From the NCBI RefSeq assembly GCF_010993745.1, contig NZ_WOTN01000001.1:1-41234 (forward strand): 41,234 bases of DNA, given 5' to 3'. Shown piece after piece: positions 8,076-24,969 of the stretch. Numbering within the stretch: position 1 is the stretch's first letter; every line of letters starts with the position of its first letter. The notes beneath the pieces are model-generated. The model ran no database searches. It was not told where the DNA came from and was given only the letters and a program-made list of their open reading frames with translations. A program made the translations under genes and the position numbers. This DNA comes from Fodinicola acaciae (GTDB taxonomy: Bacteria > Actinomycetota > Actinomycetes > Mycobacteriales > HKI-0501).

Positions 8076-9464
8076 TCACACGGAGGGCGAGCCGTAGGTG
8101 CTGCCGGTGATGACGGCGAGGTCGGCCAGCGTACGCGACAATTGCTCGCGTACGTTGCCGAGCGCCGCCGCCAACTCGTCGTGGCGAGCCCAGCTTCGTT
8201 CGTGCTGGAGCGGATCGGTGCCGGTGCGCGTCGCCTCGTACGACTGCAGTGCGGGATGCCAATGGGCGAGCAGCGGGCGCAGATGTTTGTGCAGCAGCTC
8301 GACGCATATTCCCAGCAGAGCGAAAGGCGCCGACCGGCCTTCGCGCAGCATGTCCCTGATGAGACCAAAAAGCCGGTGGAGCGCGGTCATCGCGTCGCGT
8401 TGCTGTCCCGCCGCGACCAGCGGGAGATAGTGCGCTAGTTCCACCTGGAGCTGCCAGGCCAAGGTCCGTTCGATCGCACTCGTCGGCCGAACATCGAGGA
8501 CGGCCAGATCGCCGATGGTGATGGCGCGACCGAGCGCGGCGAGGGCCGGATCCCGCGTCGTCACGATCGACCGGGACAGTGGATGCGGGGCGAGGAACCG
8601 CCTGGCGGCGCTCGGCTCGGCGACCAGCCCGTCCAGAATCCACAATGTCCGCTGGCGTCGGCGATGAAGCTCGGTCGCGATGGCGTTCATCGCCGCTCCG
8701 GGAGGCGCGGTCGCGCCGGTGACGGCTCGGGCCAGATGGTCGAGCTGGCTGATCAGGTCGTTTTCCGCTGCGTCGAGCCAGAATATGCCGCCTGGGTAGG
8801 CGGCGCCGAAACGGTGTGCGTACTCGGTGACCAACGCGGTCTTGCCGGCGCCGGCCGGTCCGATGACGACGGCGATCGGATGAATGCGGCCGGACGTGAT
8901 CGAGCCGTCGTACGGGTGCAGGACCGAATGCAGCTGCCACAACTCGGCCAACCGGTTGTCGAAACTGGCCGCCGGCGGCCGTGCCGGTGCCGGCAGCCAG
9001 AGCGGCGGACCGAGTGTTTCCACGTCGCCGATGGGAGACTCGATGGTGCGCAGGTGTTCGGTGATTCGCGCGACCAGTGCGGCCAGCTCCGAGCGCGTAC
9101 GCGGGGCGCGTGCGTGCCGGGCGTCGCGCAGTTGCAGTGGGTGGATGTGGTCGACGCCCGGCTCGGGGTTGACGACCATGACTCGCCGAGAGGGCGCGCC
9201 TTCCTGTTGTCCGGCCAGAAAGGCGGCGGTGAGCTCGTACTGGCAGGCCTGCCTGAGCGGATATCGCGCCGAATAGAAGGCGAGCAGGGCGCGGGACGAT
9301 CTCAACGCACCGAGAATCGTGTCGGAGATCGGCTGGAACAACGGAACGTCGTGATCGTCCCAAAAGACGCGCAGGCCGTGGTCACGCAGCGCGGAGGCGA
9401 GGATGCTCGCCGGCGCGGCGTCGTCGTCCCGGCTGTAACTGACGAACACATCCCAGTCGGGCAT
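8076..9464 (-). CDS. TIR domain - P-loop NTPase - shared helical domain protein
   Basis: This 462-residue protein has three parts. Residues 1-140 are a TIR domain that starts WDVFVSYSRDD. The putative NAD-cleaving glutamate is E77 in ACQYEL. Residues about 165-325 are a STAND/NB-ARC-like NTPase with a Walker A GPAGAGKT (202-209), a Walker B RTLWILDG (272-279) and an arginine sensor VTTRD (301-305). Residues 330-462 hold a helical domain with AWQLQVELA, HWHPALQSYEATR and HERSW. The same domain makes up both small proteins encoded divergently from 9536. No repeat sensor (TPR, WD40, LRR) is present, so this domain takes the sensor place. TIR-STAND proteins are often immune effectors that deplete NAD. 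That role is inferred here. The start at 9464 is preceded by GGAGG. Confidence 0.9.
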   Translation of the reverse strand: MPDWDVFVSYSRDDDAAPASILASALRDHGLRVFWDDHDVPLFQPISDTILGALRSSRALLAFYSARYPLRQACQYELTAAFLAGQQEGAPSRRVMVVNPEPGVDHIHPLQLRDARHARAPRTRSELAALVARITEHLRTIESPIGDVETLGPPLWLPAPARPPAASFDNRLAELWQLHSVLHPYDGSITSGRIHPIAVVIGPAGAGKTALVTEYAHRFGAAYPGGIFWLDAAENDLISQLDHLARAVTGATAPPGAAMNAIATELHRRRQRTLWILDGLVAEPSAARRFLAPHPLSRSIVTTRDPALAALGRAITIGDLAVLDVRPTSAIERTLAWQLQVELAHYLPLVAAGQQRDAMTALHRLFGLIRDMLREGRSAPFALLGICVELLHKHLRPLLAHWHPALQSYEATRTGTDPLQHERSWARHDELAAALGNVREQLSRTLADLAVITGSTYGSPSV

Positions 9465-10005: not shown

Positions 10006-10593
10006 ATGCGGCTCAGGCGTGTCATCCGGCCGAGGCAGGTGAGCGTCAACATCACGCTGCCATTCGTCGGCGGCATCAGTGGCACCTGGGAACCGGATCT
10101 CGCGGAAAGCAAGGCGGCGTGGGAGCTTTACGTTGAGCTCATCACCCGGGTCGCGGTTGTCGAGCTGGCGCCCGGCGGTGGCCTGCTCCGCGAGGCGCTG
10201 AGCAGCTTCTACACGCTTTTCGACACGAGCCGGGGGATTCTCCGATCGTACGGTCCGGCGGTGGCGCCGAGATCCCGCCAGGATGCCATCACCTTCGGCT
10301 CGCTTTCCATCCTGGTCCTCAACGGCGCCATACGGCCACTCCTGACCGAGTGGCACCCGGCGCTGCAGGCATGGGAAGCCACCCGGGCCGACGGTGTCGC
10401 GCCGTACGATCACGAGCAAGCCTGGCCTCGCGCCGCCGAGCTTCGCGCCCGCATCGAACAGACGCGGCAAACCTTGGCCGATCTCGCCAGGGTCCTGGCC
10501 GATGTCGCTGGCGCCGCGTATCTGCTGCCGGAACCCAACGACCCGGGAAATCCAGCGGGGGGGTGTCCCTATGAATTTGTCAAGCCGCCGTAG
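10006..10593 (+). CDS. second small protein related to the TIR C-terminal domain, 3' end altered by IS110
   Basis: This is a 195-residue protein with no recognised function. After a basic start (MRLRRVIRPRQ) and a strand-like VSVNITLPFV, it carries the shared domain: AWELYVELITRVAVVELAP, WHPALQAWEATR, HEQAW and a final helix with TLADLARVLADVAG. The match to the TIR protein C-terminus is closer than that of the preceding gene. Its reading frame runs into an IS110 element at about 10565. The last nine residues and the stop come from the element and overlap the transposase 3' end. If the element is removed at the inferred GT core, the frame ends at once with TGA after NPAGG, so the ancestral protein was about nine residues shorter and otherwise whole. 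Confidence 0.8.
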   Translation: MRLRRVIRPRQVSVNITLPFVGGISGTWEPDLAESKAAWELYVELITRVAVVELAPGGGLLREALSSFYTLFDTSRGILRSYGPAVAPRSRQDAITFGSLSILVLNGAIRPLLTEWHPALQAWEATRADGVAPYDHEQAWPRAAELRARIEQTRQTLADLARVLADVAGAAYLLPEPNDPGNPAGGCPYEFVKPP

Positions 10594-11785
10594 CGACTGT
10601 GGCTGGTTGGGGGTGCCGGAACTGGGTTTTGTTGCGGAGCATGGCGTAGAGGACGTCGCAGCGTCGGCGGGCGAGGCAGATGAGGGCGGCGTTGTGTTTC
10701 TTGCCTTCGGCGCGTTTGCGGTCGTAGTAGGCGCGGCTGATGGGGTCGTGCAGGGCGGCGAACGCGGAAAGGAAGAACGCGCGCTTGAGCTTGCGGTTAC
10801 CGCTTCGAGCGGGGTGTTCGCCCTTGATAGAGGAGCCCGAGGCGCGGGTGACTGGGGCGATGCCGGCGTAGGCGGCCAGGTGCGCGGAGGAGGCGAACGC
10901 CGAGGCGTCACCGATTTCCAGGAGGATGCGGGCGGCGGTCCTGACCGCGATGCCAGGCATCGAGGTCAGGACCGCGGCAAGAGGGTGTGCATCGAGAATC
11001 TCCTCGACCTCGTGTTTGACCTGTTCGCGTTGCGCCAGAACGGTTTTCAGGCTGTCAGCCAGGCGGGGCAGCACGGTGTCGGCGGCGGTGGTGCCGGGAA
11101 CAATGACGGTCTGTTCGTCCAGCGCGGCCCAGATCGCGGTGACGAGTTTCTCGCCGATGCGGGGCGCGTGGGTGGTGGCGATCGCGGTCAGCGTGCGTCG
11201 TCCGGCCCTGCGAATGCCGGTGGGGCCGCCGCACCGGGACAGGATTTCCAGGACCGCCGGGTGCGCGATCTTCGGTCCGATCGCGCCTTCCAGGGCGGGG
11301 TGGATGCCGGTCAGCAGGCCGCGGATGCGGTTGCCGATGCGGGTGGCCTCGCCGGCCAGATCGTCATCGAATCCGACCAGGACTTCCAGTTCGGCCAGCG
11401 TGTCGTCGCCGACGTCGACCTGTCGCAGCGTGTGCGGCAGGGATCGGGCGGCGTCGGCGATGATGAACGCGTCGCGGGCGTCGGTCTTGGCGTGGCCGGG
11501 ATACAGATCCGCGATACGGCGCATGGCCAGGCCGGGCAGATACGCCACCTGGTGCCCGCAGGCGCGGGCGACCGCCACCGGCAGGGCGCCGATGGTGGCG
11601 GGCTGATCCACCACGACCAGCAACCGGCCATGTCGGGCGAGTTTGTCGAACACCGCCCGCAGCTTGGGTTCACTGTTGGGCAGCGGCGCATCGTGCAGCC
11701 GCTTACCAGCCGGGTCCAGACCAACGGCGTGGTGTTCTCCTTTGCCGACGTCCAAGCCGAGGAACACGCCATATTCGCTGTTCAT
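10580..11785 (-). CDS. IS110-family DEDD/serine transposase (bridge recombinase)
   Basis: This is a 401-residue recombinase. The N-terminal RuvC-like domain starts with VFLGLDVGKGEHHA, with D12 as the first acidic residue, and carries VVDQPA and HAKTDARDAF, the later acidic positions of the DEDD set. The C-terminal Transposase_20 domain includes LTSMPGIAVRTAA, AYAGIAPVTRASGSSIKG, where one of the serines is expected to be the nucleophile, and GNRKLKRAFF. I chose the ATG at 11785 because family members begin a few residues before the FLGLDVG motif. An in-frame start 45 bases upstream is less likely. The gene is uninterrupted. Its 3' end overlaps the convergent small gene by 14 bases. Confidence 0.93.
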   Translation of the reverse strand: MNSEYGVFLGLDVGKGEHHAVGLDPAGKRLHDAPLPNSEPKLRAVFDKLARHGRLLVVVDQPATIGALPVAVARACGHQVAYLPGLAMRRIADLYPGHAKTDARDAFIIADAARSLPHTLRQVDVGDDTLAELEVLVGFDDDLAGEATRIGNRIRGLLTGIHPALEGAIGPKIAHPAVLEILSRCGGPTGIRRAGRRTLTAIATTHAPRIGEKLVTAIWAALDEQTVIVPGTTAADTVLPRLADSLKTVLAQREQVKHEVEEILDAHPLAAVLTSMPGIAVRTAARILLEIGDASAFASSAHLAAYAGIAPVTRASGSSIKGEHPARSGNRKLKRAFFLSAFAALHDPISRAYYDRKRAEGKKHNAALICLARRRCDVLYAMLRNKTQFRHPQPATVATAA

Positions 11786-11834
11786 CCACCGTGTCTTTCG
11801 TCGCGTCGCAGGCGGTCGCCAGTCAGGCATCGAC

Positions 11835-12132: not shown

Positions 12133-13494
12133 CTAGATCGGTCGGCCGCGGCGGGATTGGCGTTGATGGGGTGCCACCGACGAAAGCACGTCGGCGATCT
12201 CGTTGATGCGCTCTTCGGGCAGCCTGGTGGTGGCCACGCGCAGGTGGTTGGTCTCGATTTTGTCGCAGGAGAACAACGATCCCGCTCCGGCGCCGATCCC
12301 GTGTACGGCCAGCGTGACCAGCGCCTCGTGTTCGTCGTGCACCGGGACCCACAGCACGAGGCCGTCCCTGGCGCGGGTGCGCACACCGCGCTCTGCCAGC
12401 GCCGCCGCGAGCGACTCGCGGCGACGCGCGTACGTCGAGGCCGCTTTTTCCACCAGGGAAAGGCTGTCCGGATCGGTCAGCATGTGCGCGATCGCGCCTT
12501 GCAGCAGCCGGCTGGACCATTCCGCACCCATTTCGCGGCCGAGCCGCGCCGGCTCGATCAGCCGCGATGCTCCGGCGAGTACGCCGATCCGCAGGTCGGG
12601 GCCGTGCGACTTGCTCCAGTTGCGCACCAGTGCGGTCCGGTCAGGGAAGAAGTTTCCGAGGCTGTACGCGGGGAAACGGGACAGCGCGCACACCGGGTCG
12701 TCCTCGACGATCGCGAGATCGGTGTCCCGTAAGGCGAAAGCCAGCTGGTCGAGCCGTTCGGCGCAGAGCGCACTGCCGGTCGGAGACTGCGCGCGAGGCT
12801 GATAGACGAACATCACCGGCCGCGCCTGCAGCGCCTCCTCGACCGCCGCCGGGACCGGTCCGTATTCGTCGCATTCGACCGGGATCGGTTGTGCGTCCAG
12901 GGAATCCAGGATGTCCAGCAACCGTCCGGTGCCTGGCTGCTCGACCATCACTCGTTCGCCGCGCCGCAGCAGCTCGTGGCAGAGCAGATAAATCCCGTCG
13001 TAGCCGCCGTTGACGACGATCATCTGCTCCGGCTGGAACGGCCACTCGGACTGCTGGATGTCGCGCAGCGCCGGCAAAACGGTGTCGTCGGGATGCGCCG
13101 GATATCCGTTGAGCGCCGGCACTGGCGGCATCGTCGCGAAGGCCCGGAGAGGATCGGGAAGCAGTTGTGGATCGGGTACGGCCAGGCTGAGGTCGAGCGG
13201 ATACGGATGGATGGCCGGGCCGCGCAGCATCCGTTGCATGCCGCGCGGCCGGGCGACACCGCGCACGACGGTGCCGAGTTTTCCGCGCGTTTCAATGACT
13301 TGCGCGGCGATCAGCAGCCGCCACGCCTCCGCGACCGTGGTCGGCGAGACGCCGATCTGCGCGGCCAGGTCGCGTACGGTCGGCAGCCGGTCACCGGCCC
13401 GCAGGCCGCCGCTGCGGACCAGGTGTCCGATGCCGACCGCGATCCCGCGTGCGGATCTCTCGGTGAGCTGGTCGGCGAGGGTTGCTGCTTGCAT
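12133..13494 (-). CDS. MocR-type GntR regulator with aminotransferase-like domain
   Basis: This is a 453-residue regulator with two domains. Residues about 15-85 form a GntR winged helix-turn-helix (GLRAGDRLPTVRDLAAQIGV, then SPTTVAEAWRLL). Residues about 115-445 have the fold of class I aminotransferases. The PLP-binding lysine is visible in NWSKSHGPDLRIG, and the substrate loop in QSPTGSAL and VEDDPV. Such proteins bind PLP and usually control amino acid, GABA or vitamin B6 genes. The ATG at 13494 gives the usual short N-terminus, five bases after the hydrolase stop. A much longer in-frame extension is low-complexity Arg/Gly and was rejected. It is the last gene of the opp-like operon, so it may sense a product of that pathway. 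Confidence 0.9.
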   Translation of the reverse strand: MQAATLADQLTERSARGIAVGIGHLVRSGGLRAGDRLPTVRDLAAQIGVSPTTVAEAWRLLIAAQVIETRGKLGTVVRGVARPRGMQRMLRGPAIHPYPLDLSLAVPDPQLLPDPLRAFATMPPVPALNGYPAHPDDTVLPALRDIQQSEWPFQPEQMIVVNGGYDGIYLLCHELLRRGERVMVEQPGTGRLLDILDSLDAQPIPVECDEYGPVPAAVEEALQARPVMFVYQPRAQSPTGSALCAERLDQLAFALRDTDLAIVEDDPVCALSRFPAYSLGNFFPDRTALVRNWSKSHGPDLRIGVLAGASRLIEPARLGREMGAEWSSRLLQGAIAHMLTDPDSLSLVEKAASTYARRRESLAAALAERGVRTRARDGLVLWVPVHDEHEALVTLAVHGIGAGAGSLFSCDKIETNHLRVATTRLPEERINEIADVLSSVAPHQRQSRRGRPI

Positions 13495-13499
13495 CGCTG

Positions 13500-14291
13500 T
13501 CAGACTAACGAAACCCGATAGCGCCGGTGTGCCAGAGACGGCAGTTTCTCGCGTACGTCCGCGAGCCGGCCGGCGGTGGCCTCGACCACGGCCATCCCCG
13601 GCACCTCGCCGAGATCGGCGAGCTGCGCACCCATCGGGTCGTACGCGGCGCTGCGGCCGATGCACCGGTCGTTGATCTTTCCGGATCCGATCGCATAGCA
13701 GGTGTTCTCGATCGCTCGCGCGCGCAGGAGGCTCAGCCAGTGCGCCTCCTTGAACGGTCCGCGCACCCAGGCGGCCGGCACCGCGAACAGGTCGGCGCCG
13801 CGATCGACCAGATCCCGGAAGATCTCCGGAAAACGCAGGTCGTAACAGGTCACCAGTCCGACGGTCAGGCCAGCGCAGCGGAACGTGGCAGGGTCCTCGA
13901 CGCCAGGCACGATGTTTTCCGACTCTTTCGCGGAAAAGGCGTCGTAGAGATGCAGCTTCCGGTAGTACGCGGCCAACTCGCCGCCGGAGGCGACGACCGA
14001 CGTGTTGTAGACGCGGCCGTCGTCGGTGTCCGCTGTCTCGTGAATGCCAATCGTCACCGCCACGCCGTGCTCGGCGGACAGTTTACGCAGGCCGGTTACG
14101 AAAGGCCCGTCCAACGGCTCGGCGGCCTGCCGCACTTTCTCCTTGTCGTCGCCGAAATCCACCATCGCCGCCTCCGGGCATATCAACATGTCCGCGCCGG
14201 CCTCGGCGGCACGGCGGGCGTAGCCGGCGACGATGTCCAGGTTGGCGGTCTTGTCCTGCCCGGGACCGTACTGAGCGATGGCGACACGCAT
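13500..14291 (-). CDS. carbon-nitrogen hydrolase (nitrilase superfamily)
   Basis: This is a 263-residue cytoplasmic enzyme of the nitrilase superfamily, which cleaves amides or nitriles. The catalytic Glu-Lys-Cys triad is clear in CPEAAM, YRKLHLYDAF and VTCYDLRFPE. Length and motifs fit the amidase branches (omega-amidase, deaminated glutathione amidase, N-carbamoyl hydrolases) rather than true nitrilases. The start MRVAIAQYGPG at 14291 is the standard N-terminus. An upstream in-frame ATG adds 33 unlike residues. It starts two bases after the ABC ATPase stop and ends five bases before the MocR gene. It probably hydrolyses a compound brought in by the linked importer. Confidence 0.92.
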   Translation of the reverse strand: MRVAIAQYGPGQDKTANLDIVAGYARRAAEAGADMLICPEAAMVDFGDDKEKVRQAAEPLDGPFVTGLRKLSAEHGVAVTIGIHETADTDDGRVYNTSVVASGGELAAYYRKLHLYDAFSAKESENIVPGVEDPATFRCAGLTVGLVTCYDLRFPEIFRDLVDRGADLFAVPAAWVRGPFKEAHWLSLLRARAIENTCYAIGSGKINDRCIGRSAAYDPMGAQLADLGEVPGMAVVEATAGRLADVREKLPSLAHRRYRVSLV

Positions 14292-14293
14292 GG

Positions 14294-15235
14294 TCAGCTT
14301 TCCTCCGGATGGTGACAGGCGACGAGATGGCCGGCTTTTCCGTTCAGGGCCGGCGGATCGGTCGCGCAGATGTCGGTGGCTTTCCAGCACCTGGTACGAA
14401 ACCGGCAGCCGGACGGCGGGTCGACCGGCGACGGCACGTCGCCGGCCAGCACCCGCCTGGAGCTCTTCTTCGCCGGCGTCGTCGATGGGATCGCCGACAG
14501 CAGCGCGGTGGTGTACGGATGCTTCGGATGAACGTAGATCTGTTCGCGCGGACCGATTTCGACGATTTTTCCGAGGTACATCACCGCGACCCGGTGCGAG
14601 ATGTGGCTGACGACCGCGAGATCGTGCGCGATGAACAGATACGAGACGCCCAGCTCGGCCTGCAGATCTTCGAGCAGGTTGACGACGCCGGCCTGTACGG
14701 AAACGTCCAATGCGGACACCGGCTCGTCCAGGATCACCAGGCCGGGTCGCAACGCCAGCGCGCGAGCGATGCCGATCCGCTGCCGTTGCCCGCCGGAAAA
14801 CTGATGTGGATAGCGGTCGGCGAAAGACGGGTCGAGGCCGACCGCTCGCAACAGCTCGGAAATCCGGCCGGGCCCGCTATGCCGGTCCCACTGGCCGTGG
14901 ATTCTCAGCGGCTCGGCGATGAGGCCGGCCACCGTCCGGCGCGGGTTGAGCGACGCGTACGGATCCTGGAACACCATCTGCGCCTGCCGGCGCACGGCTT
15001 TCATCGGTGTCGTACGCAGATCCTTGCCGGCGATCCGCACCTGGCCGCCGGTGATCGGTGTGAGGCCGAGAAGGCTGCGGCCCAGCGTCGACTTGCCGCA
15101 ACCCGACTCGCCGACCACGCCGAGTGTTTCGCCAGGTGCCAAGGAAAACGACACGTCCGCCACCGCGGACAGGCGTTTTCCACCCGGCACCTTGTATTCG
15201 GTGACGAGGTTTCGCACGTCCAACAGCGCACTCAT
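14294..15235 (-). CDS. oligopeptide-type ABC transporter ATPase, OppF/DppF
   Basis: This 313-residue ATPase has Walker [11 protein letters not shown]-loop [11 protein letters not shown], signature [15 protein letters not shown], Walker [13 protein letters not shown] and the H-loop IAHDLAVV. The C-terminal oligopeptide extension has the cysteine cluster [14 protein letters not shown] and ends in VACHHPEES, a pattern linked to an iron-sulfur site in this subgroup. The ATG at 15235 overlaps the partner gene stop by four bases. A longer in-frame start would add 40 Arg-rich residues and was rejected. With OppD it would energise uptake of a peptide or peptide-like solute. Confidence 0.95.
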
Positions 15236-16209
15236 GCCGGACTCCCGACCAGAGGGTGATGGCACGCGGCGAACCGGTCGATGCCGAGCGGTTCCAATGC
15301 CGGTTCGTCGGAGCATTCGGCGTCGGCGCGCTCGCAACGTGGTTCGAACGGACAACCGCCGGTCAGTGACAACATCGATGGCGGTTGTCCAGGAATCGGT
15401 ACGAGCCGGTGGCCGCGTTCGCCGACACGGGGGAGCGAGGCCAGCAAGCCACGGGTGTACGGCATGCCCGGTGCGCCGAAAAGCGCGCTGGTCGGCCCTG
15501 TTTCCACTGGCCGGCCGGCATACATCACCATCACCCGGCTGGCCAACTGCGCGATCACGCCGAGGTCGTGGCTGATCAGCAGAATGGAGATCCCCAGTTT
15601 CTCCCGCAGCCGGTCGAGAGTTTCCAGCAACTGCGCCTGGACCGTGACGTCCAGCGCGGTGGTCGGCTCGTCGGCGATCAGCACGGCCGGATCGTTGACC
15701 ATCGCCATCGCGATCATCACCCGCTGCCGCATGCCGCCGGAAAACTGGTGCGGATAGGCACGTGCCCGCTCGGCAGCCGCCGGAATCCCCACCAGATCAA
15801 GCATCTCGACCGCTCTCTTGCGAGCGTCGCGCGCGGACATGCCGGAGTTGTGTGCTCGCGCGGCTTCGGCGATCTGGTCGCCGACCCGATAGACCGGGTT
15901 CAGCGCCGTCATCGGATCCTGGAAGATCATCGCGATGTCCTTGCCACGGACGCGATCCAGCTCTCGCGCCGGCAGGCCGAGCAGTTCGGTGCCGCGCAGC
16001 CGCGCCGAGCCGGTGACGACCGCCGCCGGCGGCAGCAGGCCGAGCATCGCCAAGCTGGTGACGGACTTTCCGGATCCGGATTCGCCGACCACGCCGAAAA
16101 CCTCGCGCTCGGCCAGCGTGAAGCTGACGCCGCGTACGACGGTGGCCGGTCCGTCCGGTGTCGGAAAGGTCACCGTCAGGTTGTCGACCTCCAGCAGCGG
16201 TGCCTCCAT
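15232..16209 (-). CDS. oligopeptide-type ABC transporter ATPase, OppD/DppD
   Basis: This 325-residue ATPase has Walker [11 protein letters not shown]-loop [12 protein letters not shown], signature [15 protein letters not shown], Walker [13 protein letters not shown] and H-loop SHDLGVIAQ. The C-terminal tail holds the family cysteine pattern [14 protein letters not shown] followed by AACHHP. It starts 10 bases after the creatininase-family gene stop and overlaps OppF by four bases. It is the usual partner of OppF, giving an ATPase heterodimer on the inner face of the membrane. The family is certain. Substrate specificity comes from the binding protein at the front of the operon. Confidence 0.95.
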
Positions 16210-16219
16210 GACCTTCTCC

Positions 16220-17020
16220 CTAACCGACCGAAACGGTGTTTCGGTCGTATTCCTTGACGAAGTCGACGCAGAAGCCGATCACCCGGTCGATCCACACCTG
16301 GCCGGTCTCCTTGCTGGCCACGGTGACGTCGCCGGTGACTCCGGACGGGCTGACATCGGAGAAATCCCAGTAAACCGTGCCATCCACCGGGTGACCGTCG
16401 ACCCGCGCGGAGACGTAGCTGGTCGGCTGCCAGCCCTGGTAGGACTGGAGTTTTCCGCCTTCCGCGGCATCCATCCGCACCTGCTCGGGAAACATCGCGA
16501 GCATCGCGGACAACTCCGGCTCGGCGCCGTGACCATAGGCAATCGCCGGGTCGTCGTACTGGTCACGCATCAGCTGATATCCCAGCGACCACGGGTAAAC
16601 CGTGCCGATGAGGACGCCGTGCCTGGCCCGCAGGTCGACCGCGGCGGTGGCCACCGGCGAGGTGTTGCCGCCGTTGTTGTTCACGATCACGATCCGCCGG
16701 AAGCCGTGCCGGATCAGCTCGTCGCAGATGTCGGTGATGACGGCGGTCAATGTCTCGTGCCGCAGGTTGATCGTGCCGGCGTAGCCGCGGAAGGTCGGTG
16801 AATGGCCATACATCATGGTCGGCAGCACCAGTGCGTCGGTGGCCTCCGCGACCGCTTTTGCCACGTATTCGGCGACAATCGAGTCCTCGTGCAGCGGCAG
16901 GTGCGGACCGTGTTGCTCGATGGTGCCGACCGGCAGCAGGACGACCGGGTTTTTCTCGGCCGCCTCACGTGCTTCGGTCCAGCCCATCTCGCCGAGGTTG
17001 CGGGTGCGCCAGGAGGTCAT
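16220..17020 (-). CDS. creatininase-family amidohydrolase with an altered metal site
   Basis: This 266-residue protein belongs to the creatininase fold. The conserved GTIEQHGPHLPLHED block supplies E, H and D metal ligands (E34, H36 and D45 in Pseudomonas creatininase), and GHGAEPELSAM matches the later GHAGExETS region. The usual NGHGGN motif, whose histidine is a metal ligand, reads NNNGGN here (bases 16669-16686). The codons are AAC AAC AAC, so this is not a misread. The enzyme may hold one metal, use a different ligand, or have lost activity. It overlaps the permease stop by four bases. Family members act on cyclic amides and related substrates. The substrate here is unknown. Confidence 0.88.
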   Translation of the reverse strand: MTSWRTRNLGEMGWTEAREAAEKNPVVLLPVGTIEQHGPHLPLHEDSIVAEYVAKAVAEATDALVLPTMMYGHSPTFRGYAGTINLRHETLTAVITDICDELIRHGFRRIVIVNNNGGNTSPVATAAVDLRARHGVLIGTVYPWSLGYQLMRDQYDDPAIAYGHGAEPELSAMLAMFPEQVRMDAAEGGKLQSYQGWQPTSYVSARVDGHPVDGTVYWDFSDVSPSGVTGDVTVASKETGQVWIDRVIGFCVDFVKEYDRNTVSVG

Positions 17021-17895
17021 GCGTTTCCTTTCTTCTTGGTCTTGGTCGTACGTTGCGGGTCGAGAGAGTCGCGGAGGCCGTCACCAAGGACGTTCAGTGC
17101 GAGCACGACCGCGGCGATGACCAGTGCCGGTGCGATCAGCAGGACCGGTTGCACGGCAAGGAAATCGCGGCCGGCGGACACCATGCTTCCCCACGACGGC
17201 AGCGGCGGCTGTGCGCCCAGGCCGAGGAACGACAGGCCTGACTCGACCTGGATCGCGAAGCTGAGGGACAGCGAGGCCTGCACCACGATCGGTGCGAGGA
17301 TGTTCGGCAGGATGGTGCCGGCCATGATTCGTACGGGACCGGCTCCCATCGCACGTGCGGCGAGGACGTAATCGTTGGCGCGGACCGAAAGTGCGGAGCC
17401 GTACACGACTCGCGCGAACCGCGGAATGTACAGCACGCCGATCACACCGACCAAAATGGACAGACCGGAGCCAAGCGCCGCGACGGCCGCGACTGCCAGT
17501 ACGATCGTCGGAAAACTCAGCATAACGTCGATGCCGCGCATGATGACCGTCTCGGTCCAGCCGCGTACGTAGCCGGCGACCAGGCCCAGCGCGGTGCCGA
17601 CAACGCCGGCGATGAGAACGGCAGCCACCGAAACACTCAGCGAAACCCGGCCGGCGTAGATCAGCCGGGAGAAGATGTCGCGGCCGTAGTCGTCCGTGCC
17701 GAGCAGACCCAGTCCGGCCAGTGGCCGGCCGACCATGTCACCGTAGGAGTGTGGCGCGATCAGCGGCGCGAAAATCGCCGTGATGGCGACGATCGCGAGA
17801 AATCCGCCGCTGATGGTGATTCGCGGATTGAGCCGCGGTCGCCGCCGCCCGGTCGAGGTTGGGGCGGCGATGTCGGTGGAAGCAAGTGTCGTCAT
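17017..17895 (-). CDS. oligopeptide-type ABC transporter permease, DppC/OppC
   Basis: This 292-residue permease has a cytoplasmic Pro/Arg-rich N-terminus, one leading helix, the DppC hallmark LGTDDYGRDIFSRLIYAGRVSL and about five further helices. The EAA-like loop is ANDYVLAARAMGAGPVRIM. It ends with a highly basic tail, RTTKTKKKGNA. The ATG at 17895 overlaps the DppB stop by four bases. It forms the channel with the DppB-type protein. The N-terminal extension seen in a longer reading of this frame is antisense-like sequence over DppB and was dropped. Confidence 0.95.
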   Translation of the reverse strand: MTTLASTDIAAPTSTGRRRPRLNPRITISGGFLAIVAITAIFAPLIAPHSYGDMVGRPLAGLGLLGTDDYGRDIFSRLIYAGRVSLSVSVAAVLIAGVVGTALGLVAGYVRGWTETVIMRGIDVMLSFPTIVLAVAAVAALGSGLSILVGVIGVLYIPRFARVVYGSALSVRANDYVLAARAMGAGPVRIMAGTILPNILAPIVVQASLSLSFAIQVESGLSFLGLGAQPPLPSWGSMVSAGRDFLAVQPVLLIAPALVIAAVVLALNVLGDGLRDSLDPQRTTKTKKKGNA

Positions 17896-18836
17896 GCCGC
17901 TCCGATCCGCGGGTCGAGCACCCGCAGGGTGAAGTCGACCAGCATGTTGATCAGGATGGTGAGGACCGCGATCACCAGCACGACGCCTTGGACGACCGGA
18001 TAGTCGCTCGATCGGATGCCGGACATCAGCAGCGACGACAGGCCTGGCCAGCCGAAAATGGTTTCGACGATGACCGTGCCGCCGAGCAGCGTCGCCAGTT
18101 CCAGACCGGTCACGCTGGCGACCGCGTTCATCGAGTTTCGCAGCGCGTGCTTGACGATGACCTTGCGCTCGCCGATGCCTTTCGCGCGCGCCGTGCGGAC
18201 GTAGTCGGTCGACAGGACCTCCAGCATGGCCGACCGAGCCATCCTGGTGACGACAGCGGCAGGTGCCGCCGTCAGGGTCAACACGGGGAGGATCAGCAAT
18301 CGTAAATGGACGAGCGGATCGTCTTGTAGTGCTTCGAAACGCGTCGGTGGCAGGATCGGCAGCCATTGGGAGAAAATCAGCACGAGCAGGCCGCCGAGAA
18401 CGAAGACGGGGAAGGACAACCCGAGCACGGCGCCGCCGGTGACGACGTGGTCCGTCGCCTTGTTGGCGCGTACGGCCGCCAGCATGCCCAGTGGAATGCC
18501 GACGATCAAGGCGAGAACGACCGCGCAGACGACCAGCTCGAGCGTGTTCCCGAAGCGCAGGTTGAGATCGCTGACGACCGCGCGACCGCTGATCAACGAG
18601 CTGCCGAGGTCGCCGTGCAGCAGTTTTTCCCAGAATCCCAGGAACTGGTTGACCAGCGGCTGGTCCAGTCCGAGTTGGTGGCGGATCTGGTCGAGCTGGC
18701 TTTCGGTGGCGTTCTCGCCGAGCACGGCCTTGGCCGGATCGCCTGGCACCAACCGGAGCAGGACGAAGACGATCGTGCCGACGCAGAAGAGCTGGATCGC
18801 GGTGATCGCCAGCCGGCGCGCGGTGTAGCGGATCAT
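17892..18836 (-). CDS. oligopeptide-type ABC transporter permease, DppB/OppB
   Basis: This 314-residue permease opens with the DppB signature: MIRYTARRLAITAIQLFCVG, then FVLLRLVPGDPA. About six membrane helices follow. The EAA-type loop is DYVRTARAKGIGERKVIVKHA, which docks the ATPases, and the C-terminus LVDFTLRVLDPRIG is typical. The ATG at 18836 overlaps the binding-protein stop by four bases, continuing the chain of ATGA junctions through this operon. Such strict coupling suggests fixed subunit ratios. Confidence 0.95.
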   Translation of the reverse strand: MIRYTARRLAITAIQLFCVGTIVFVLLRLVPGDPAKAVLGENATESQLDQIRHQLGLDQPLVNQFLGFWEKLLHGDLGSSLISGRAVVSDLNLRFGNTLELVVCAVVLALIVGIPLGMLAAVRANKATDHVVTGGAVLGLSFPVFVLGGLLVLIFSQWLPILPPTRFEALQDDPLVHLRLLILPVLTLTAAPAAVVTRMARSAMLEVLSTDYVRTARAKGIGERKVIVKHALRNSMNAVASVTGLELATLLGGTVIVETIFGWPGLSSLLMSGIRSSDYPVVQGVVLVIAVLTILINMLVDFTLRVLDPRIGAA

Positions 18837-20425
18837 GGCTTGTCCAACCAGGCACCGCGCAGGCTGACCTGCGTCCAGGTGCCGTTTTTCGGGTGTGCGT
18901 AACCTTTCACGTAGTCGCGCATCGCCTCGCCCTGCACGCGCCGCACCGTGTAGGTGCACGGCAACAGGTCCAGCACCCGCGACTCGACCTCGTGGTAGAT
19001 TTCCGCGCGCTTTCCCGGATCGGCGGTCCGTCTGCCGAGGCCGAGCAGCGCGTCGACGCGGTCGTCGGCGAAGTTCCAGTATTTGGCCCAGGTGCCGCCA
19101 CTGCCGAAGAAGTCGCGCAGCGCGTCCGGGTCGCCGTACGTGATCGAGGTCCCCCAGACGTGTGCCGGAAACGTGTGTGCCTTCACGGTTTCCCGGAACG
19201 GCAGCCATTCCTGGCGGGTCAGCGCCGGGTTGATGCCGGAGCGCTGCAGGCCGGCCAGCGCAGCTTCGGCCGGCCGGTAGATCACCGAGTAGGTGCTCGT
19301 CGTCAGCAGGTTGATGTCCAGTGTGGACAGTCCGGCCTGGCGGAGCAGATGCTTGGACCGGTCCGGGTCGTAGGGATATCGACTCGCCAGCGCCGGGTCA
19401 TGGCCGAGGATCCCCGGTGGCAACAGGCCGCCGGTGATCGGCTTTCCGTTGCCGAGGAAAGCCGTCTCCACGATCGACTGCCGGTCGAGGCCGTACGCGA
19501 ACGCCTGCCGGACGCGGAGATCGGAGACCGGCTTGCGGTTGGTGACAAACCCCACGAACCCGAAGCCGAAGGTGTTGTCGCCGGCGAACGTGACGCCTTT
19601 TGCCTTGCGTACCACGTCAATGTGCGTGGCCGGCACATAGTCGATGAAGTCGACGGTGGCCGACAGCAGCGCCTCGACCCTGGAGTAGTCGTCTGGCATC
19701 GGCAGAAACTGCACGGCGTTGAGGTGTGGCAGGTCCGAGTCGTAATAGTGCGGATTTCGCGCGAGCGTAGTTGAAACGCCAGGCACTCGCTCGACCAGTT
19801 TGAACGGCCCGGTCCCCATCATGGTCGTCTTGGTGTCGGCGCCGCCGGTTATCCATTCTTTCGAGAGGATCGTCGTGCTGGTGGCGGCGAGCGCGTGTGG
19901 CAGGACGACGTTGGGTTCGCGCAGCTTCAGCACGACCTTGTTTCGTCCGGCCGCCGAAATGCTGGTCACACCGGTGAAGAACTTCGCGCTGGTCGCCGCC
20001 GTCCTCTTGTCCATGATGCGGCGCAGGCTGAAAATCACGTCGTCGACGGTCAGCGGCTGTCCATTGTGGAAGGTGACACCGTCGCGGAGCGTCAGCTCGT
20101 ACGTCGTCGGATTGACGAAACCGAAGTCGCTGGCCAGATCGCCGACGATCGCGCCGGTCGGGCCGTACTGCAGCAGTGTGTTGTAAGCCAACTGCTGCAC
20201 GGTCGTCGCCGCGGCGCCGGTCGACACCTGCGGCTCGAAGTTTGAGACATCGGTGGAAAGGCCGTATCTGAGCACCCCGCCACGGCTCGGCTTTCCGTTG
20301 CCTGGATTGCTGATCGCCTCGGCACGCGGGTCGAGGCGGGCCGGATTTCCGCACGCCGCGACGATTCCAGCGGCGCCGAGAGTGCCGAGTTTGATCGCGT
20401 CCCGGCGACTGAGGTGATAGGGCAC
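18833..20425 (-). CDS. peptide-type ABC transporter substrate-binding lipoprotein, Tat-exported
   Basis: This is a 530-residue solute-binding protein of family 5 (SBP_bac_5). The N-terminus carries a twin-arginine motif, SRRDAIKL, at residues 6-13, a hydrophobic segment and a lipobox VAAC with the cysteine at residue 25, so it should be exported folded and lipid-anchored. The family segment LRDGVTFHNGQPLTVDDVIF (quoted in part) lies near residue 150. I chose GTG 20425 because a GGAG ribosome site lies just upstream and it places the Tat motif at the start. Upstream in-frame codons would bury that motif. It is the first gene of the operon and sets the specificity for a peptide-like or nitrogenous solute. 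Confidence 0.93.
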   Translation of the reverse strand: MPYHLSRRDAIKLGTLGAAGIVAACGNPARLDPRAEAISNPGNGKPSRGGVLRYGLSTDVSNFEPQVSTGAAATTVQQLAYNTLLQYGPTGAIVGDLASDFGFVNPTTYELTLRDGVTFHNGQPLTVDDVIFSLRRIMDKRTAATSAKFFTGVTSISAAGRNKVVLKLREPNVVLPHALAATSTTILSKEWITGGADTKTTMMGTGPFKLVERVPGVSTTLARNPHYYDSDLPHLNAVQFLPMPDDYSRVEALLSATVDFIDYVPATHIDVVRKAKGVTFAGDNTFGFGFVGFVTNRKPVSDLRVRQAFAYGLDRQSIVETAFLGNGKPITGGLLPPGILGHDPALASRYPYDPDRSKHLLRQAGLSTLDINLLTTSTYSVIYRPAEAALAGLQRSGINPALTRQEWLPFRETVKAHTFPAHVWGTSITYGDPDALRDFFGSGGTWAKYWNFADDRVDALLGLGRRTADPGKRAEIYHEVESRVLDLLPCTYTVRRVQGEAMRDYVKGYAHPKNGTWTQVSLRGAWLDKP

Positions 20426-20506
20426 TGGCTCTCCTGCGTTCACATCGAGGAGCGTCCGGGGATGCCAGCGAAGATAATCTGATCGGCAGGGGCCGAACAA
20501 GACTCT

Positions 20507-20570
20507 TTCTGTTACAGAACACACTGTCACTGCAGGCGATCGCGTCGTCACGCTCTTCTGGTGTGAAGAG
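20507..20570 (-). promoter_or_regulatory. two inverted repeats upstream of the opp-like operon
   Basis: The 184 bases before the binding-protein start contain a perfect 13-base palindrome, TTCTGTTACAGAA (20507-20519), and a second inverted repeat, CTCTTC-N6-GAAGAG (20553-20570). They are AT-richer than the surroundings and lie about 80-145 bases before the GTG, where an operator would be expected. The likely user is the operon's own MocR-type regulator or another GntR protein. That link is inference. Confidence 0.45.
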
Positions 20571-22674: not shown

Positions 22675-24969
22675 ATGTCACTCTCAGCAGTACGCGGCCG
22701 CGCCTTCCTGGCCGCGCTGGCGGTCGCTGTGGCCACCCCGATGGCCACCCTCACGGCCGCGGCATCAGTCACGGCGGCACCGGCCGCCGGCAGCTACCAG
22801 AACGCCGTCACGGACGGATACTCCATCGACTTCCCCGACCCGGCGGTGATGCGCGGCAAGGACGGCAAGTACTACGCGTACTCCACCGGCGGTCCGTACG
22901 ACCAGCAGGGCGCCGCCAGCGACCCGGTGAAGATGGCCAGCTCCACCGACCTGACGCACTGGACCAAGCTCGGCGCGCCGTTCGTGGTCGGCAAGAACTG
23001 GCCGTCCTGGGTCGCTACGACCAGCGGCATCTGGGCGCCGGACATCCGCTACATCAACGGAAAGTACGTCCTGTACTTCGTCGGACCAGACACCACGGCC
23101 AGCTCCGAGGGCTTCGATCCGGCCATCGGCGTCGCGACCGCGGACAGCCCGGCCGGTCCGTGGAAGGACGCTGGCGCGCCGCTCATCCCGGCCCGCAAGA
23201 ACACCGGCGCCGGCTGGGAGACGGTGATCGACCCGGCGCAGTTCACCGACTCCGACGGCACGCGCTACATGTACTGGGGGAGCTACGGCTCCGGCATCTG
23301 GCTGGTCCAGCTCTCGCCGGACGGCCTGCACTCGGTCACCGCGCCGCGCCAGGTCGCGACCAGCCGGTTCGAGGGTGGCTACGTGATCAAGCGGGACGGC
23401 TGGTATTACCTGATGGCCTCGTCGGCCAACTGCTGCGCCGGCCCGACCACCGGCTACACCGTCTTCGCCGGCCGGTCGAAGAGCCCGTGGGGTCCGTTCC
23501 TCGACCGCGACGGCGTGTCCATGGCCGACTCGCGTGCCGGCGGCACGATCGTGATCGCGCAAAACGGCAACCGCTGGGTCGGCGTCGGCCACAACTCGAT
23601 CGTGACCGACCGCACCGGCCAGCAGTGGATGACCTACCACGGCGTCGACCGCTACAAGCCTTATCTGCAGGTCTCGCCGGGATTCACCATGCGGCCAATG
23701 CTGCTCGACCGGCTCGACTGGATCGGCGGTTGGCCGATCGTACGCGGCGGCGAGGGTCCGTCGGACAGCCCGCAGCCGGCTCCGGTCGTGACAAGTCCTT
23801 TGCTGGACCAGAGGTTCGACGGCAACACCGACGGATTCAAGACACTCAGCGGAAGTCTGACCGCGCAGGGACCGGACACCAAGAGCGACTCCGGTGGCTA
23901 CGCGGCGGTCAACGGCGTCGCGGTCTCGGCGAAACCAGCGCCGGCGGACGTACGCGTGGAGGCGGACGTACGCGGCGACACGCCGGGCGTCACGGCACGC
24001 TATGCCGACGCGAAAAACAACGTCGTCGTGCTGGCTGACGGCAAGACCCGGCAGCTCAACGTCGTGGTGACGACCAACGGCCGTGCGACGACGACGAGTG
24101 CGCCGGTCGCCAACAGCATCGACATGTCCAAGTGGCACAAGCTGGTGGTGGAAGTGCGCGGCAGCCAGCTCAGTGCCACCTACAGCGACGCCGATCTCGG
24201 CGATCCTTCGGCTCTGCTCAACGTAAAACTGCCGGCGAAGCTGCATGGTGGCGACGCCGGCGTGACCGGCGTCGGCGATGTCGACAACGCGTCGGTGGCG
24301 CCGCTTTATGTGCCGCACACGTCATTGGTGCGGCCGCCGACACCGGGATCGCTGGTCTTTTCCGACAACTTCACCAGCAACCTCGGACCCGGCTGGACCT
24401 GGAAGCGGCAGGACGCCAACGCGCACGTCGCCGACGGCAGCCTGCGGTGGCCGACCGAGAGCGCGGACCTGACCGGTGACACGGCCGGCAAGACGGGTCT
24501 GCTGCTGCGTGCCGCGCCGACCGGCACGTACACCATCGAGACGAAGCTGACCATCGACCTGGGCACGGACACCACCCGCGAGTTCCAGCAGGCCGGACTG
24601 TTGGTTTACAACGCCGACAACGACTTCCTGCGGCTCGACCACGTGGCGACCGGGCCCAACCGGATCACCGAGTTTGGCAAGCGGGTGATGGTCGGCAACA
24701 TCAGCTCGTGGGGTGGCGCGGTGCTCGGGCCGCCGGCGACCACGACGTACTTCCGGATCCGGCACACGGTGGCGGCCAACGGCGAAAACCTCTACCAGGG
24801 TGCGTCGAGCCGCGACGGTCGCAACTGGACGTGGGGCGCGACCTGGACCATGCCGGCCGGTACGACTCCGCAGATCGGCCTGGTGTCACAGGGATCCACG
24901 CCGACCGCGGAGGCCACCTACGGCAAGGCGCTGGCGCAGTTCGACTACTTCCGCGTCTATCGCGGCTGA
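22675..24969 (+). CDS. secreted GH43 glycoside hydrolase with C-terminal accessory domain
   Basis: This 764-residue exported enzyme has a signal peptide of about 35 residues ending near TAAPAAG. Residues about 45-360 form a five-bladed propeller of family GH43. The three catalytic acids can be placed: D55 in FPDPAVMR, D186 in IDPAQFTDSDG and E233 in SRFEGGYVIKRDGWYYLM. A middle region, about 380-545, is beta-rich. The final part, from about residue 560 (SDNFTSNLGPGWTWKR to the end), resembles the DUF1349 concanavalin-like fold. GH43 enzymes attack arabinan, arabinoxylan or xylan chains. An arabinan-type substrate would fit the GH127-ABC locus elsewhere in the window. The exact bond is not readable. 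Confidence 0.9.
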   Translation: MSLSAVRGRAFLAALAVAVATPMATLTAAASVTAAPAAGSYQNAVTDGYSIDFPDPAVMRGKDGKYYAYSTGGPYDQQGAASDPVKMASSTDLTHWTKLGAPFVVGKNWPSWVATTSGIWAPDIRYINGKYVLYFVGPDTTASSEGFDPAIGVATADSPAGPWKDAGAPLIPARKNTGAGWETVIDPAQFTDSDGTRYMYWGSYGSGIWLVQLSPDGLHSVTAPRQVATSRFEGGYVIKRDGWYYLMASSANCCAGPTTGYTVFAGRSKSPWGPFLDRDGVSMADSRAGGTIVIAQNGNRWVGVGHNSIVTDRTGQQWMTYHGVDRYKPYLQVSPGFTMRPMLLDRLDWIGGWPIVRGGEGPSDSPQPAPVVTSPLLDQRFDGNTDGFKTLSGSLTAQGPDTKSDSGGYAAVNGVAVSAKPAPADVRVEADVRGDTPGVTARYADAKNNVVVLADGKTRQLNVVVTTNGRATTTSAPVANSIDMSKWHKLVVEVRGSQLSATYSDADLGDPSALLNVKLPAKLHGGDAGVTGVGDVDNASVAPLYVPHTSLVRPPTPGSLVFSDNFTSNLGPGWTWKRQDANAHVADGSLRWPTESADLTGDTAGKTGLLLRAAPTGTYTIETKLTIDLGTDTTREFQQAGLLVYNADNDFLRLDHVATGPNRITEFGKRVMVGNISSWGGAVLGPPATTTYFRIRHTVAANGENLYQGASSRDGRNWTWGATWTMPAGTTPQIGLVSQGSTPTAEATYGKALAQFDYFRVYRG

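Follow-up and report, generated by a model that had tools for sequence, protein, structure and literature searches.

The window, a 41,234-nucleotide stretch of the Fodinicola acaciae genome (contig NZ_WOTN01000001.1, positions 1 to 41,234), encodes a creatininase-family protein in which the metal-binding histidine of the family motif is replaced by asparagine, and this replacement has become fixed in a protein that is being maintained, rather than being an error or a sign of decay. We consider it probable (roughly 0.6) that the protein represents a distinct, maintained subfamily of creatininase-fold, metal-dependent amide hydrolases whose metal site has been rebuilt and which would act on peptide-like substrates after their import. 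The genes and sites concerned, all on the minus strand, are the following:

18833-20551, minus strand: ORF of a substrate-binding protein (SBP, SBP_bac_5), true start probably inside
17892-18836, minus strand: OppB-type permease, within ORF 17892-19208, start inferred
17017-17895, minus strand: OppC-type permease, within ORF 17017-18855, start inferred
16220-17020, minus strand: the protein under study, a creatininase-family member (PF02633) of 266 aa, start overlapping the OppC end by 4 bases
16790-16792, minus strand: codon 77 of this protein, TTC, encoding Phe at a site that is His in 44 of the 51 non-clade rows
16664-16681, minus strand: NNNGGN motif, residues 114-119, replacing the family motif NGHGGN
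16673-16675, minus strand: codon 116, AAC, encoding the Asn that aligns with His120 of creatininase
15232-16209, minus strand: OppD-type ATPase
14294-15235, minus strand: OppF-type ATPase, within ORF 14294-15355, start inferred
13500-14291, minus strand: nitrilase-family protein (CN_hydrolase), start inferred
12133-13494, minus strand: last gene of the row, a MocR-type GntR/aminotransferase regulator whose approximate start lies within ORF 12133-13665

The DNA of 16664-16684 (minus strand) reads GTG AAC AAC AAC GGC GGC AAC, and the translation of 16220-17020 (minus strand) yields 266 aa with RIVIVNNNGGNTSP. The reading of NNNGGN for NGHGGN made in the first-pass annotation is therefore borne out by the DNA and the translation, as well as by the PF02633 match and the alignment, with the correction that the motif spans 16664-16681 and lies a few bases off the 16666-16689 originally given. 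The PF02633 match reaches 223.6 bits against a Pfam gathering cut-off of 31.3. In creatininase, His120 and others of the residues E34, H36, D45, H178 and E183 bind metal. When the window protein is aligned with P. putida creatininase, its residues E35, H37, D46, H164 and E169 correspond to E34, H36, D45, H178 and E183, so that equivalents of the metal ligands E34, H36 and D45 are present, whereas N116 takes the place of the ligand His120 and G118 that of Glu122. Since Asp or Asn is also found at this position in other family members, the histidine is no condition for PF02633 and the membership stands.

All four NCBIfam equivalogs matched by the window protein score under their cut-offs, and creatininase sensu stricto (TIGR04448; 130.4 bits, cut-off 235), the mycofactocin peptidase MftE (TIGR03964; 119.1 bits, cut-off 172), 3-dehydro-scyllo-inosose hydrolase IolN (NF041098; 89.5 bits, cut-off 245) and archaeal ArfB deformylase (NF033501; 29.3 bits, cut-off 180) were rejected as assignments. 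A structural model built from six aligned sequences is of moderate confidence (pLDDT 68.8, pTM 0.70), with pLDDT below 50 at residues 37-43, 73-83, 189-208 and 210-229, including the loop of H73 and F77. The predicted fold is that of creatininase (P. putida structures 1j2t, 1q3k and 3a6d-3a6l), as the model matched 12 creatininase-family entries at Z 20.0-22.3 and the next fold at 8.9.

Close homologues with 57-67% identity to the window protein (search rows) were identified in 11 other genomes, and all 11 encode Asn116, which rules out a sequencing error or lone decay. Three of these homologues (Murinocardiopsis flavida, Nonomuraea jabiensis and Leucobacter musarum) were retrieved with a DNA pattern for the Asn motif and eight by whole-genome protein searches that took no account of the motif. 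The 12 members, including the window protein, match the latter at E values of 4e-102 or better and the best other match lies at 2.3e-38, a gap which sets the group off sharply. His116 occurred in none of the homologues at E values up to 1e-45 in the protein searches, in some of which the best 6 or 8 candidates per genome were scored. Homologues in the same gene context that all carry NGHGGN, taken beforehand as the mark of a recent loss or sequencing error, were thus not encountered among the close homologues. Furthermore, dN/dS ranged from 0.05 to 0.43 over eight pairs of members, and the subfamily is under purifying selection. The check suggested at first, a search for other members that combine NNNGGN with Opp-like neighbours, is borne out by the 11 homologues as far as their Opp linkage is concerned, yet the first residue of the motif varies, being Asn in seven and Asp in five of the 12 members. 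The motif is accordingly [ND]NNGGN, and a triple Asn as subfamily signature is ruled out.

The group is patchily distributed. In overlapping genome samples, members were present in one genome among the 299 from the family of the Leucobacter genome and in three among the 54 from its genus, in 7 of 297 genomes of the order, 5 of 54 of the genus and 2 of 394 of the class of the Nonomuraea genome, and in two of three genomes of the family of G882. In a phylum sample of 396 genomes, the sole member was that of the window's own genome, which was also the only one of 200 genomes with the exact DNA pattern, and 60 relatives of it, including one genome of the same genus that is 74% complete, contained no close homologue (best match 4e-32). 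This patchiness is probably due to transfer between lineages. The DNA pattern, written in high-GC codons only, matched at least 120 stretches in genome contigs, and among the 120 stretches read seven encode a relative, three from the clade and four MftE-like, which means that more Asn-type members may exist. No relative was obtained from the genome-contig scan with P0001 or from the viral-contig scans.

A first set of 51 rows, obtained after dropping duplicates and, from 75 rows, 10 that were shorter than 140 aa, was followed by a tree of 60 rows from which the motif columns, the truncated L096 and repeat fetches were left out and in which longer stretches were used. The nine members then known, without the last-found L199, L200 and L201, formed one clade (100/100), and together with the presence of Asn116 in 12 of 12 members this supports part of the earlier suggestion, in that the asparagine marks a subgroup. 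Site 116 requires three changes on the tree and holds only H, N and D in the 60 rows, with Asn in all nine clade rows and 44 His, 4 Asp and 3 Asn in the 51 non-clade rows; as the three Asn rows, all MftE-like proteins of Geodermatophilaceae, stem from the scan aimed at Asn, an unbiased count omits them and stands at 44 His, 4 Asp and no Asn among 48. In addition to N116, the residues E45, H73, F77 and N115 are present in all 12 members (nine by the tree alignment, three added later), and E35, H37, D46, H164, E167 and E169 are likewise kept in 12 of 12. At site 45 the fixed Glu of the clade contrasts with Thr in 38 of the 51 non-clade rows, and at site 77 Phe in all members contrasts with His in 44 of these rows. 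The statement in the first-pass annotation that all other ligand motifs are kept consequently applies to E35, H37, D46, H164 and E169 only and fails for the His at 77, which is Phe throughout the group.

In members of the NGHGGN type, His77 may serve as an additional ligand. It is missing in the NGDFGN, NGHDAN and NNHFEP rows in addition to the NNGGN clade. His116 and His77 are both replaced, as in the window clade, in the NGDFGN branch (L006, L011, L012 and L013), a separate clade with Asp at 116, Asn at 77 and no Opp gene in the flanks examined. MftE-like Asn rows retain His77 and three His116 rows lack it. For a paired test of joint change at both sites, the tree offers two independent pairs on well-supported branches, which leaves the test without power, and a link between sites 77 and 116 is no more than suggestive.

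The window protein is encoded in the order SBP, OppB, OppC, creatininase-like protein, OppD, OppF, nitrilase-family protein and MocR, and the gene order at L180 and L181 is identical. Genes for SBP, OppB, OppC and an Opp ATPase accompany all 12 members, although their order varies; with this conserved neighbourhood, and with Asn116 in the 11 other close homologues, the earlier view of an intact operon that is not in simple decay is upheld. The nitrilase-family protein of the window has deaminated glutathione amidase as its best NCBIfam model (252 bits, under the cut-off of 355). A nitrilase-family gene is located nearby in 10 of the 12 loci, separated from the ATPase gene by about 1.4 kb rather than adjacent to it in L184, L186 and L202, and was not found at L182, where just 1.6 kb of contig follows the ATPase gene, or in the 6.5 kb looked at for L183. 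Beyond the operon, the window contains an IS110-family transposase (DEDD_Tnp_IS110, 162 bits; 10580-11830, minus strand) between the operon and a gene for a TIR-domain protein (TIR_2, 58 bits; 8076-9464, minus strand) with a P-loop ATPase-like segment, possibly of the STAND type, whose AAA_16 and NACHT matches lie under the cut-offs. A GH43 glycoside hydrolase with a GH43_C2 domain and a putative N-terminal signal peptide is encoded at 22675-24969 (plus strand).

Outside the clade, the flanks of the 51 rows (mostly about 1.5 kb) contained weak SBP matches (22-78 bits) in seven rows of the NGHGSN group, an OppF match in L173 and weak MocR matches in two rows, and no such match in the remaining rows. 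Larger stretches around six non-clade genes revealed full Opp operons at the NGHGSN loci L193 and L197, where the creatininase-family gene is followed by SBP, OppB, OppC, OppD and OppF, and no Opp match at L194, L195 (which ends 1.5 kb past the gene), L196 and L198. The L193 and L197 proteins, 36% and 34% identical to the window protein, keep the His, so that Opp linkage is also a trait of some His-type relatives. A further creatininase-family gene follows an Opp operon on an Agrobacterium pusense plasmid (L189, 5959-6816), and the two NGHGSN loci and this homologue together rule out Opp linkage as a unique trait of the Asn type. The fetched stretches of L193 and L197 contained no nitrilase match, and in this small comparison the nitrilase partner is a more distinctive trait than Opp linkage. 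The L189 protein has EEQG for EQHG, NGHTTN with the His kept, and Met for Glu169, indicating that sites in the creatininase family can degenerate within Opp operons. Annotated neighbours of its gene further include a serine hydrolase, an aldolase and an N-formylglutamate amidohydrolase. The annotated neighbours of the plasmid homologues L188, L191 and L192 are not Opp genes, and one further plasmid homologue carries no annotation.

Creatininase shares the fold and the five aligned residues with the window protein and differs from it in H120 and E122, replaced by N and G, and in the Opp/nitrilase neighbourhood of the latter. MftE belongs to the same family, and Geodermatophilaceae MftE-like proteins share the Asn, whereas they have His at 77 where the window protein has Phe. 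Four MftE-like rows (L051, L067, L096 and L152) have NGNGGN for NGHGGN; L051 and L067, of the Geodermatophilaceae Asn type, pass the MftE model (331 and 336 bits, cut-off 172), and an MftC gene (655 bits, cut-off 265) adjoins L067. No mycofactocin gene was identified among the eight window proteins scanned. Published work describes a family model for MftE (PMC3023750), MftE as a peptidase (PMC10885120) and a Sinorhizobium protein, first annotated as creatinine amidohydrolase, that acts as the formamidase BrbF (PMC9478397). The literature searched, which excluded most subscription papers, yielded no report of a creatininase subfamily that is both Asn-type and Opp-linked.

Based on gene content and residue conservation, we hypothesize that the oligopeptide/dipeptide-type ABC transporter imports a peptide-like or amide compound, of which the creatininase-like enzyme would open an amide bond, possibly a cyclic one, in the cytoplasm. 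The nitrilase-family amidase could then act on a further amide of the same compound or its product, and the MocR regulator may sense an intermediate. In creatininase, the metals are bridged by the Asp that corresponds to D46. Asn116 would replace His120 as a weaker, oxygen-donating ligand, the metal site being rebuilt and not abolished, and E45, which adjoins the equivalent of the bridging Asp, would re-shape the pocket together with H73, F77 and N115. A metal-dependent hydrolase is favoured by the retention of E35, H37, D46, H164 and E169 in all 12 members and by the restriction of site 116 to H, N and D, residues that are all able to bind metal. The fold match, the separate occurrence of Asn in the MftE-like proteins, the Opp and nitrilase neighbourhood and the dN/dS values also speak for the preferred reading. 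Counting against it are the joint loss of His77 and His116, also seen in the NGDFGN branch, with which one metal site could be gone, the degenerate site of the Opp-encoded L189 protein, and the nitrilase gene that was not found in two of the 12 loci and is about 1.4 kb away in three. More tentatively, the exchange of His77 and His116 for Phe and Asn and the gain of Glu45 and His73 might have rebuilt the centre so that it holds another metal, holds just one, or catalyses a novel reaction on a peptide-like compound that is imported, with a similar double loss having occurred separately in the NGDFGN branch.

A doubtful alternative is a single-metal subfamily, in which the loss of His116, and of His77 with it, would remove one site and leave a single catalytic metal, bound by H37, D46 and a newly gained ligand, for instance E45 or H73. 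While the replacement of both histidines in 12 of 12 members and four NGDFGN rows and the fixation of E45 and H73 in the clade are consistent with this, Asn is itself able to bind metal, both E35 and D46 are invariant, and the titles of PDB entries include Mn-Zn and Zn-Zn forms of E122Q creatininase, a variant of another ligand position, so that an altered ligand does not necessarily leave a site empty. An improbable alternative is that the protein has no enzymatic activity and serves the transporter operon as a binder or regulator. This would fit the fixed change at a ligand site, the tight operon with the transporter and the Opp-linked L189 homologue, which lacks other conserved residues; a mere binder need not keep E35, H37, D46, H164 and E169 invariant in 12 of 12 members, and a nitrilase-family gene is near in most loci. 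There is a negligible chance that a sequencing error, or a recent loss confined to a single strain, explains the Asn, given the Asn of the 11 other homologues, eight of them found blind to the motif, and the dN/dS values.

The group is an unnamed subfamily marked by a telling neighbourhood of a peptide importer, a creatininase-like hydrolase and a nitrilase-family amidase. Furthermore, the natural variants with N, D or H at one ligand site, with or without the second conserved His, would allow the need for each ligand of the creatininase family to be tested.
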